NCBI RefSeq assembly: GCF_016887965.1
Contig: NZ_JAFDVD010000004.1
Span: 62,001 to 126,000 of the forward strand
Length of the DNA: 64,000 nt
Reading direction: 5' to 3'
From: Phycicoccus sonneratiae
GTDB taxonomy: Bacteria; Actinomycetota; Actinomycetes; Actinomycetales; Dermatophilaceae
The position numbers and the translations under genes are program-made. Under the pieces are notes generated by a model. The model ran no database searches. It was not told the DNA's origin and was given only the letters and a program-made list of their open reading frames with translations. Positions 2,730-10,204 of the stretch are shown in pieces. Every line of letters begins with the position of its first letter. Within the stretch, counting starts at the first letter, position 1.

Positions 2730-3944
2730 GTGACGACGGTGACCCTCGCGCCGTACCGGCGTGTCCTCTCCAGGCCGTCACTGCGCCGCATCCTCGTGCT
2801 GGGCACCCTGACCCGCATCCCGATGTTCGCGACCCCCGTCCTCGTCGCGCTGCACGTCGTCACCTCGCTCGGCCACACCTACGCGATGGCCGGCCTCGTC
2901 GGTGCCGCGGTCACGGCCGCCGTCGCGGTCAGCGGGCCGTGGCGCGGGCGGCTCCTCGACCGGCACGGCCTGCGCGCGGTGGTCGGCCCGTCGGTGCTCG
3001 TCTCGGGGCTGTGCTGGGGGATCGCTCCGTGGGTCGGGTACTGGGCGCTGCTCGTGCTCGCCACCGTCGCCGGCCTCTTCGCCGTCCCCATCTCCTCCGT
3101 CGTCCGCCAGGCCCTCATCGCCGAGGTCGCCGAGGGCGACCGGCGCACGGCGATCGCCCTCGACTCCGCCGCCGTCGAGCTGTCCTTCATGGTCGCGCCG
3201 GCGCTCGCCGTGCTCGCGACCACCCAGTGGTCGACCGCCTGGGTGCTCTTCGTCGTCCAGGTCCTCGCCGTCGTCGCCGGCCTCGGGGTCTGGCTCCTCG
3301 ACCCGCGGCTGCGCAGCGAGGCCGAGCCGGGGCACGCCCGGCACACCGTCCGCGTGACCACCTGGCTGCGCGGGCCGCTGCTCACCGTCCTCGTCACCGT
3401 CGCCGCCACCGCCGTCATCCTCTCGGGCAGCGACCTCGCCTTCGTCGGCACCGTGCGCGGCTTCGGCCAGACCGCGCTGCTCGGGCTGGTCCTCGCCCTG
3501 TGGGGGCTCGGCTCGCTCGTCGGCGGCCTGCTCTACGGGGCGCTGTCGCGCGACGTGCCCTCCCGCTGGCTGCTCCTGACGCTCGCCCTCGTCACCGTCC
3601 CCATGGCGGCGGCGGGGTCGGTGGTCCTGCTCGGGGTCCTCGCCCTCGTCGCCGGGCTGCTCTGCGCCCCGACCATCACGGCCACCGTCGACGAGACGGC
3701 CCGGCTCGTGCCGGCCGAGGTGCGCGGCGAGGCGATGGGCTGGCACAACTCGGCGCTCACCGCCGGGGGTGCGCTCGGTGCGCCCTTCGCCGGGCTCGTC
3801 ATCGACCACTACGACGGTGGCGCGGGGTTCCTCGCCGTGGCCGCCGTCGGGTTCGTCGTCGCCCTCGCGGCCTTCGCGGTGCGTCCGAGCCGCCGCGGGG
3901 CGCAGGCGCCGGTCGAGGCGCCGGCGCGGGCCGCGCACCGATGA
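2730..3944 (+). CDS. MFS transporter
   Basis: A major facilitator superfamily permease of about 404 aa in the cytoplasmic membrane. The protein is strongly hydrophobic with roughly 12 predicted membrane spans and a typical MFS loop after span 2 (GPWRGRLLDRHGLRAV). A soluble loop of about 30 residues near the middle (DPRLRSEAEPGHARH) separates the two six-helix halves. The substrate cannot be told from sequence; related actinobacterial proteins are usually annotated as drug or sugar exporters. I chose GTG 2730 because a CAGAGT -10 box lies 6 nt upstream; GTG 2724 and an earlier GTG at 2667 are possible. It diverges from the catalase gene and appears monocistronic. Confidence 0.8.
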   Translation: MTTVTLAPYRRVLSRPSLRRILVLGTLTRIPMFATPVLVALHVVTSLGHTYAMAGLVGAAVTAAVAVSGPWRGRLLDRHGLRAVVGPSVLVSGLCWGIAPWVGYWALLVLATVAGLFAVPISSVVRQALIAEVAEGDRRTAIALDSAAVELSFMVAPALAVLATTQWSTAWVLFVVQVLAVVAGLGVWLLDPRLRSEAEPGHARHTVRVTTWLRGPLLTVLVTVAATAVILSGSDLAFVGTVRGFGQTALLGLVLALWGLGSLVGGLLYGALSRDVPSRWLLLTLALVTVPMAAAGSVVLLGVLALVAGLLCAPTITATVDETARLVPAEVRGEAMGWHNSALTAGGALGAPFAGLVIDHYDGGAGFLAVAAVGFVVALAAFAVRPSRRGAQAPVEAPARAAHR

Positions 3945-3976
3945 CACGCGGCCCCGTCCCCGGGCGCCGGCAGCGC

Positions 3977-3982
3977 TACGCT
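3977..3982 (+). promoter_or_regulatory. -10 box of leaderless pheST leader transcript
   Basis: TACGCT (TANNNT) ends 6 nt before the GTG at 3989, so transcription should begin at or next to that codon. Confidence 0.5.
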
Positions 3983-3988
3983 GGACCC

Positions 3989-4048
3989 GTGACCACCTCC
4001 GCGCGTCGATTTACCGGGCCCTCGGGCCCGGTGTCGCGCGCGTCCTGA
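3989..4048 (+). CDS. Probable leader peptide upstream of pheS (19 aa)
   Basis: A 19-codon ORF (VTTSARRFTGPSGPVSRAS) begins with GTG exactly 6 nt after a TACGCT -10 box, the layout of a leaderless mRNA. Its only Phe codon is TTT, rare in this genome where Phe is nearly always TTC, and it directly precedes a perfect hairpin (4013-4032) inside the ORF. pheS starts 119 nt after its stop. This suggests a translation-coupled attenuator sensing Phe-tRNA or initiation, as in other aminoacyl-tRNA synthetase leaders; only the geometry is seen and the regulation is inferred. It could be a chance ORF. Confidence 0.4.
   Translation: MTTSARRFTGPSGPVSRAS
4013..4032 (+). promoter_or_regulatory. Perfect hairpin in pheST leader
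   Basis: ACCGGGCCC and its exact reverse complement GGGCCCGGT are separated by only two bases (TC). The 9-bp GC-rich stem lies within the 19-codon leader ORF, just after its TTT codon. No T tract follows, so it is not a classical intrinsic terminator. Confidence 0.6.
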
Positions 4049-4128
4049 GCGCCGTCACCCCCACGGCCGGCCACGCGCCGGTCGTCCCACCGCCCGGGGG
4101 CACACCTCCGTCCCCGCGCGCCGCTCCC

Positions 4129-4134
4129 TAGACT
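4129..4134 (+). promoter_or_regulatory. Proximal pheST -10 box
   Basis: TAGACT about 34 nt before the pheS ATG would give a short leader of about 27 nt. It is a second possible promoter downstream of the leader ORF and hairpin. Confidence 0.4.
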
Positions 4135-4167
4135 CGGCCGCGCCCCCACCGACGAAGAGCGGAAGCG

Positions 4168-5261
4168 ATGTCCGGACCCAACACCAGCTACGACCCCGTC
4201 GAGGTCGCCGCGCTCGACCCGCAGGCGGTCGACGCCGCCGTCGAGGCCGCGCTCGCCGCCGCGGCCGCCGCGACGTCCCTCGAGGAGCTCAAGACCGCCC
4301 GGGGGGCCCACCAGGGCGACCGGAGCGCCCTCGCCCTGGCCAACCGCGAGATCGGTGCCCTGCCGCCGAGCGCCAAGGCCGAGGCCGGGAAGCGGGTCGG
4401 CCAGGCGCGCGGTCGCGTCGGGCAGGCCTTCGCCGCCCGCCAGGCCGAGCTCGAGACCGAGCGCGACGAGCGGATCCTCGTCGAGGAGGCGCTCGACGTC
4501 ACGCTGCCGACCGGCCGCCGCCCGCTCGGCCGACGCCACCCCATCGAGCTGATGAGCGAGCGCATCGCCGACCTCTTCACCGGGATGGGCTGGGAGATCG
4601 CCGAGGGCCCGGAGATCGAGGCCGAGTGGTTCAACTTCGACGCCCTGAACTTCGACGCCGACCACCCGGCGCGCCAGATGCAGGACACGTTCTACGTCGA
4701 CCCGCCCGAGGGTGGGCTGATCCTGCGCACCCACACCTCCCCGGTGCAGGCGCGCACCCTGCTCGAGCGCGGCGTCCCGGTGTACATCGCGGCGATCGGG
4801 CGGGTCTTCCGCACCGACGAGCTCGACGCCACGCACATGCCGGCCTTCCACCAGGTCGAGGGTCTGGCCGTCGACGAGGGCATCACGATGGCCCACCTCA
4901 AGGGCACCCTCGACCGGCTGGCCGCCGAGCTGTTCGGCGAGGACATCACCACGCGCCTGCGCCCGTCGTTCTTCCCGTTCACCGAGCCGAGCGCCGAGAT
5001 GGACCTGCGCTGCTTCGTCTGCCGCGGCGCGGACCCCGACTGCCGCACCTGCAAGGGCACCGGCTGGATCGAGTGGGGTGGCTGCGGGATGGTCAACCGC
5101 AACGTGCTCCTGGCCTGCGGGGTCGACCCCGACCGCTACACCGGGTTCGCGTTCGGCATGGGCATCGACCGCGCGCTGATGTTCCGCACGGGGGTCAGCG
5201 ACATGCGCGACATGATCGAGGGTGACGTGCGCTTCGACGCGCAGTTCGGGATGGAGATCTG

Positions 5262-5262
<1 letters not shown>
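4168..5262 (+). CDS. pheS: Phenylalanyl-tRNA synthetase alpha subunit
   Basis: Catalytic alpha subunit (364 aa) of the alpha2beta2 phenylalanyl-tRNA synthetase, which charges tRNA-Phe in the cytoplasm. Residues 1-100 form the Ala-rich coiled-coil tRNA arm. The class II core follows with motif 2 (FRTDELDATHMPAFHQ), a Cys-rich stretch (CFVCRGADPDCRTCKGTG) usual for PheS, and motif 3 (GFAFGMGIDRALM). The ATG at 4168 follows a purine-rich GAAGAGCGGAAG stretch. pheT starts inside the stop codon (TGATG), so the two subunits are translationally coupled. A leader ORF and hairpin at 3989-4048 may control expression. Confidence 0.97.

Positions 5263-10204
<4,942 letters not shown>

Follow-up and report, generated by a model that had tools for sequence, protein, structure and literature searches.

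The DNA analysed here (the window) is a stretch of 64 kb from Phycicoccus sonneratiae, in which pheS (4168–5262; Pfam PF01409 and PF02912) is followed by pheT (5262–7811; PF17759, PF03147, PF03484 and PF03483); all features described here lie on the plus strand. Upstream of pheS is a putative promoter, P1, whose −10 hexamer TACGCT (3977–3982) is separated by 6 nt, GGACCC (3983–3988), from the GTG start codon (3989–3991) of a leaderless-type mini-ORF. This ORF (3989–4048) has 19 codons (VTTSARRFTGPSGPVSRAS) and ends with TGA (4046–4048). Its only Phe codon is a TTT (4010–4012), which together with the preceding CGA makes up the conserved Arg-Phe core of the leader (4007–4012), and directly 3′ of the TTT lies an inverted repeat, ACCGGGCCC-TC-GGGCCCGGT (4013–4032). 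An earlier sequence-only reading of the locus had listed the hexamer, the 6-nt spacing, the GTG, the 19 codons and the stop, together with a perfect 9-bp stem with a 2-nt spacer inside the ORF, and all of these are present in the sequence.

Arm B of a covarying long-range helix begins 5 nt past the TTT (4018–4027), and its partner, arm C′ (GCCCGGGGGC), is found at 4092–4101, with a hairpin between the two arms (4063–4085) that is predicted by MFE folding only. The hexamer TAGACT (4129–4134), 3′ of the element, is a putative second promoter of pheST, P2, recognised from its recurrence by inspection. A histidine kinase gene (54–1031; Pfam HisKA and HATPase_c) also lies in the window, set apart from pheS by genes for a catalase and an MFS protein; the same kind of gene is the immediate 5′ neighbour of pheS in many relatives.

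Conservation and reading frame of the leader

The sequence-only reading had made its case depend on conservation in close relatives, and the leader was indeed found 5′ of pheS in 10 of the 12 Phycicoccus genomes; of the other two loci, L003 is truncated at the edge of its contig and L012 has no leader. Across the family, genus included, the leader is present in 35 of 92 pheS upstream regions, a set from which the 93rd, L003, was dropped because of the contig end, and in which L027, a locus also cut by a contig end, carries the leader and is counted; L032 has none. Outside the family but within the order, 14 of 60 regions carry the leader (one in f3, nine in f9, one in f13 and three in f14), these 60 having been hand-picked among the matches listed, to cover families, with f3 represented by one genome and f4 left out. 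A single leader was seen in 51 further regions of the class, picked in the same way: L273 (f54) has an in-frame leaderless-type ORF ending CGRFRRR*, P2 and the full 8-nt B/C′ core, and its congener L333 is without the leader. Both L027 and L273 stand outside the frame and helix statistics (48 leaders, 102 loci).

A 19-position pattern matched 58 stretches in a named genome collection. Nineteen of them have pheS 120–292 nt 3′ of the motif, and these come from Knoellia, Pedococcus, Phycicoccus, Nostocoides and Janibacter, together with two MAGs labelled Intrasporangiaceae or Actinomycetota; the remaining 39 belong mostly to different phyla and had no pheS in the stretch examined. It is conservation that raises the leader above chance. 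A 14-mer with one mismatch allowed, applied over the order, was rejected as too loose, since it matched 112 of 297 genomes and its control matched too; some of its matches do sit 5′ of pheS.

When a [TC]ANNNT box followed 5–8 nt later by ATG or GTG was sought within 66 nt, 47 of the 48 leaders proved to have a leaderless-type start in the CGA-TTT frame, against 1 and 2 for the other two frames, which bears out the earlier proposal of a short coding ORF with such a start. The frame is open from the start codon through CGA-TTT in every leader found (34/34 in the family, 14/14 in other families), although the invariance of CGATTT is partly built in, as leaders were detected by this word. Between 5 and 19 codons precede Phe, giving chains of 6 to 20 residues through Phe, and there is usually one Phe codon per leader. 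In L073 and L084 the ORF reads MSGRRFS* and stops one codon past Phe, so translation as far as Phe seems to have been kept. From comparisons of this kind we have little doubt that the element is conserved and translated, and the −10-to-start spacing, as the one line of support, suggests that the mRNA may be leaderless.

The Phe codon was said to be a rare one standing right before the stem, and the counts agree: TTT accounts for none of the 76 Phe codons of five genes in the window, and in pheS of 20 leader-bearing loci TTT stands at 4/353 and CGA at 15/628. When leaderless-type ORFs containing a Phe codon of either spelling were sought in 152 regions, no clear leader using TTC emerged, and the remaining matches were kinase ends or chance-like, with the possible exception of L217 (f10), where another leaderless-type ORF, VSTARYFL*, carries TTT about 150–170 nt 5′ of the PheS match. 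In L344 (f55), an upstream frame at least 142 codons long has CGA-TTT in its last codons (..TVRARFS*), 74 nt 5′ of the PheS match, and this ending resembles the MSGRRFS* of L073 and L084.

The local hairpin and the long-range helix B:C′

Perfect 9-bp inverted repeats with spacers of 0–6 nt occur 11 times in the 64 kb, twice with a 2-nt spacer, so that the hairpin alone proves nothing. A 2-nt loop is impossible in RNA, and the predicted form is an 8-bp hairpin with a CUCG loop (4013–4032). An alignment of 29 sequences has B:C′ paired in 97.9% of cells and the local hairpin in 81.9%; sliding B:C′ by −1 or +1 reduces its pairing to 58.9% and 61.6% of cells, respectively. Being less conserved than B:C′, the perfect hairpin was rejected as the main element. 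One part of the sequence-only reading stands, a Phe codon beside an RNA pairing element before pheS, whereas the identification of that element with the 9-bp hairpin is not supported in the form given.

In 30 of the 34 family leaders the C′ partner matches at 9 of 9 positions, and G-U pairs are common in B:C′. Compensatory changes are found in L006 (GCCCCTGGG/CCCAGGGGC), L111 (GCCTCCGGC/GCCGGAGGC), L113 (GCCTTCGGG/CCCGAAGGC) and in L100 and L108 (GCCCTCGGA/TCCGAGGGC). For these five loci and L120, downstream regions from loci with another core never fitted as well (0 of 31–33 swaps), whilst for the commonest core partners of other sequence fitted equally in 2–9 of 15 swaps. Over 102 loci (48 with the mini-ORF and 54 of the kinase type described below), in neither group did any of 5000 partner permutations do as well; when each distinct core was represented by a single locus, 0/5000 permutations were as good for the mini-ORF group (n = 17) and 2/5000 for the kinase type (n = 11). 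The own-minus-swapped signal has a single peak by offset, 5 nt past TTT. Full pairing of the 8-nt core is seen in 42/48 mini-ORF and 37/54 kinase-type loci, and is missing in 6/48 and 17/54. Such covariation makes it very likely that B and C′ pair in RNA. The two structures use the same bases, and for the window RNA the local hairpins are predicted to be 8.4 kcal/mol more stable than the fold with B:C′.

A helix from C′ to sequence further downstream, as a terminator or a Shine-Dalgarno sequestor, received no support from covariation: own-minus-swapped values ranged from −2.2 to +1.1 at all offsets in four groups, covering 75 of 97 loci (15 had no good C′ and 7 belonged to an unscored group). 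By inspection there is no U-run 3′ of C′. MFE folding was rejected as a route to the output structure, its results being heterogeneous. The MFE folds of L226–L228 pair C′ with bases at the Shine-Dalgarno sequence, which at these loci would speak for an output at the level of translation, and a pairing of C′ toward the Shine-Dalgarno region was seen by eye in L224. Pairing of GTGCCGTG with ACGGCATAC was also noted by eye in some members of the family; it is absent in the genus of the window.

The module in the tail of a histidine kinase gene

The module also sits inside the last 12–14 codons of the histidine kinase gene beside pheS, where it encodes ...FRFTLP.... The pattern TTCCGATTTAYSBTGCCC was matched once each in 54 of 345 genomes of the class, with no match for the reversed-pattern control. 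The motif was directly 5′ of pheS in all 50 of these 54 loci that were read (49 by tblastn, at 74–359 nt, and L315 by coordinates), and in 46 of the 50 a helix of at least 6 bp begins 4–6 nt past TTT. The local hairpin looks weak in this form by inspection. Leaderlessness, a part of the sequence-only reading, is not essential, because the module also occurs within full-length kinase genes. Outside the motif the kinase ORFs have TTT at 2/220 and CGA at 17/1139; on the pheS side of kinase-type loci TTT is less rare, at 26/525 in a count not cut at the stop codon.

A TTC counterpart of the pattern, less strict at one position, had matches in 10 of 98 genomes, and judged by coordinates the match in G045 is the only one near pheS. 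Among 47 kinase tails 5′ of pheS collected with a text pattern, CGATTT is present in 11 of 43 without a mini-ORF and in 0 of 4 with one; the pattern missed two tails with CGATTT, L257 and L282. Tails without CGATTT served as a negative control for the helix, with 6/33 fully paired and scores of 15.7 (own) vs 14.1 (swapped), as against 5/10 fully paired and 19.1 vs 15.1 for tails with CGATTT. Two of those six fully paired tails are CGA-TTC tails, and across the five CGA-TTC tails the B/C′ core matches at 8 of 8 positions in L247, L250 and L334, at 7 in L188 and at 6 in L104. Since three of the CGA-TTC tails keep the full core, the amino acid rather than the DNA word seems to be selected, as if either Phe codon can serve. 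This evidence is thin, because the CGA-TTC tails have a common core and L230, with no Phe codon at the motif position, is yet fully paired in its core.

From Arg-Phe to the stop codon there are 11 residues in 26 of the 34 family mini-ORFs (1–14 in the rest), 4–11 in the 14 mini-ORFs of other families and 10–12 in all 50 kinase tails. These similar lengths and a common R-F-T-x-P pattern suggest that the mini-ORF arose from a kinase tail by break-off or duplication. We would propose tentatively, with slightly more doubt than belief, that an attenuator with a single helix and a single Phe codon was born within the last codons of an unrelated full-length gene, such that ribosomes finishing the kinase would sense Phe-tRNA for pheST, and that in several families the tail was copied or cut off, acquired its own promoter and start codon and is now a leaderless mini-ORF.

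A possible attenuator of pheST and its alternatives

The sequence offers three of the things that an attenuator calls for: a short ORF (or the end of an ORF) 5′ of pheST, a cognate Phe codon and a helix within reach of a stalled ribosome. The leader probably senses Phe-tRNA; we also lean, a little less firmly, towards its being a translation-dependent Phe-codon attenuator of pheST, and the direction proposed, with Phe-tRNA shortage raising pheST expression, could equally well prove right or wrong. The rare codons CGA and TTT are read slowly, and ribosomes on the mini-ORF or the kinase tail would arrive at this slow CGA-UUU pair. With ample Phe-tRNA the ribosome would pass, and the RNA could then fold into B:C′ or, where there is a mini-ORF, into the local hairpin; the folded RNA would reduce what the upstream promoter contributes to pheST, through less read-through or less translation. 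Were Phe-tRNA short, the ribosome would wait with UUU in the A site and cover roughly the next 12 nt, which would mask most of arm B, and pheST expression would rise. The consulted part of PMC4833913 states that a ribosome covers about 12 nt past the codon that it is reading. Waiting at UUU, it would then lie over the 5-nt spacer and some 7 nt of B, so that B:C′ could hardly form, and the fixed 5-nt spacing in the mini-ORF and kinase forms is consistent with masking of B.

The arrangement could also work by competition between hairpins, a ribosome stalled at UUU blocking only the local hairpin and leaving the 3′ portion of B to pair with C′ in the ON state. It would be in keeping with this that the local hairpin of the window begins directly past UUU, that B:C′ extends to 11–16 bp, mostly 3′ in B, in L084, L120, L208, L212 and L185, and that in L226–L228 and, by eye, in L224 C′ has a further pairing, with a stretch that touches the Shine-Dalgarno sequence. 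However, the helix starts 5 nt past UUU, within reach of the ribosome, in both forms, there is little local hairpin in the kinase form by inspection and the pairing of C′ to downstream sequence is without covariation; we regard competition as rather unlikely beside masking. It is quite improbable that the element is instead a regulatory site in DNA, with CGATTT and the near-palindromic B and C′ as operators for a protein regulating pheST and the ORF incidental. Nucleotide conservation is high, and in several groups both arms come close to being palindromic, but an operator leaves unexplained the in-frame start codon in 47/48 leaders, the many G-U pairs in B:C′, the several f35 kinase tails which pair though non-palindromic and the full retention of B/C′ in three of the five CGA-TTC tails.

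Arg-Phe is present in every leader found, partly owing to detection by CGATTT, and might belong to an arrest peptide whose nascent chain itself stalls the ribosome. The residues before Arg-Phe are variable, though, and the chain to Phe varies from 6 to 20 residues, and we give this explanation very little weight. Least credible of all is control by a T-box or another known riboswitch, even if a synthetase operon with a structured leader invites the comparison: an Rfam search with positions 3900–4300 of the window gave no match with E up to 1, T-box included, and none to the proteobacterial Phe leader of Rfam, whilst eight relatives gave one match only, below the gathering score, to the unrelated CC3552 on the opposite strand of L259. 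T-box riboswitches place synthetase genes under the control of tRNA charging, and in this they resemble the masking attenuator favoured here; the conserved reading frame and the lack of an Rfam match set the pheST leader apart.

The E. coli pheM-pheST attenuator has several Phe codons, a leader led by a Shine-Dalgarno sequence and an intrinsic terminator. A leader with Phe codon(s) before pheST is shared with the actinobacterial loci, in which none of the other E. coli features, the several Phe codons, the Shine-Dalgarno-led leader and the intrinsic terminator, was found. Classical attenuator leaders carry several cognate codons, whereas there is usually one Phe codon here, a point against an attenuator. 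Going by its title, the work of Canestrari from 2020 reportedly concerns polycysteine leaderless short ORFs of mycobacteria, which would be leaderless amino-acid-responsive attenuators as proposed here, but for cysteine, with several codons and at other operons.

In its consulted parts, the survey of Seliverstov in 2005 names pheST as a gamma-proteobacterial attenuator case and states that RNA structures conserved upstream of phenylalanine operons were not seen in Actinobacteria (PMC1262725). In the actinobacterial attenuators and the LEU element which it describes, a leader peptide goes, as here, with RNA segments that can pair in alternative ways, and for some of them no terminator is obvious (PMC1262725). 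Streptomyces lividans has leader peptides before synthetase genes, leuL2/leuS, trpL2/trpS, alaL/alaS and thrL/thrS, of which leuL2, trpL2 and thrL are described as leaderless in the consulted sections of PMC8079986. These are likewise short ORFs before an aminoacyl-tRNA synthetase gene, and in trpL2, as in the pheST leader, there is a single cognate codon and the hairpins lack a U-rich stretch; in the same sections, none of the eight leaders listed is for Phe, and neither a helix at a fixed 5 nt past the codon nor embedding in a neighbouring gene is described (PMC8079986). The searched parts of PMC13236596, PMC5784534, PMC3890552 and PMC2965389 do not mention pheS, and no description of an actinobacterial pheST attenuator was found in titles and abstracts of mostly non-subscription literature. 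Thus leader-peptide control of synthetase genes is already known, and what is new is the usually single Phe codon, the one covarying helix at fixed spacing and the home in a kinase gene in many genomes. If true, this would bring Phe-tRNA-responsive control of pheST to Actinobacteria, where the consulted parts of the 2005 survey report no conserved structure (PMC1262725). It also raises the general questions of whether the tail of a coding gene can be an amino-acid sensor for its neighbour and whether a stalled ribosome can act by masking a single helix, and it points to a way in which evolution could turn the tail of a protein into a leader peptide, which would show the birth of such a leader.

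The TAGACT of P2 is found directly 5′ of the pheS start codon in several relatives that have no leader and is missing in others; where present, P2 would, we infer, supply basal pheST expression. The Knoellia-type leaders L016–L020, L023, L110 and L115 are without TAGACT by inspection, and several of them have a predicted G+C-rich hairpin shortly 5′ of the pheS start. In L013 and L014 (G007) the PheS match is split into two pieces that overlap, as though pheS were broken by a frameshift or by an error in sequencing. Most f37 loci (L291–L312) have a CCTTTGGCACCTTTGYGTCC-like stretch just after TAGACT, which could be a leaderless ORF started by TTG or another leader element. Finally, the words GGCATAC and GTATGCC turn up repeatedly close to pheS across the family, whether or not a leader is present (for example in L100, L069, L032 and L089).
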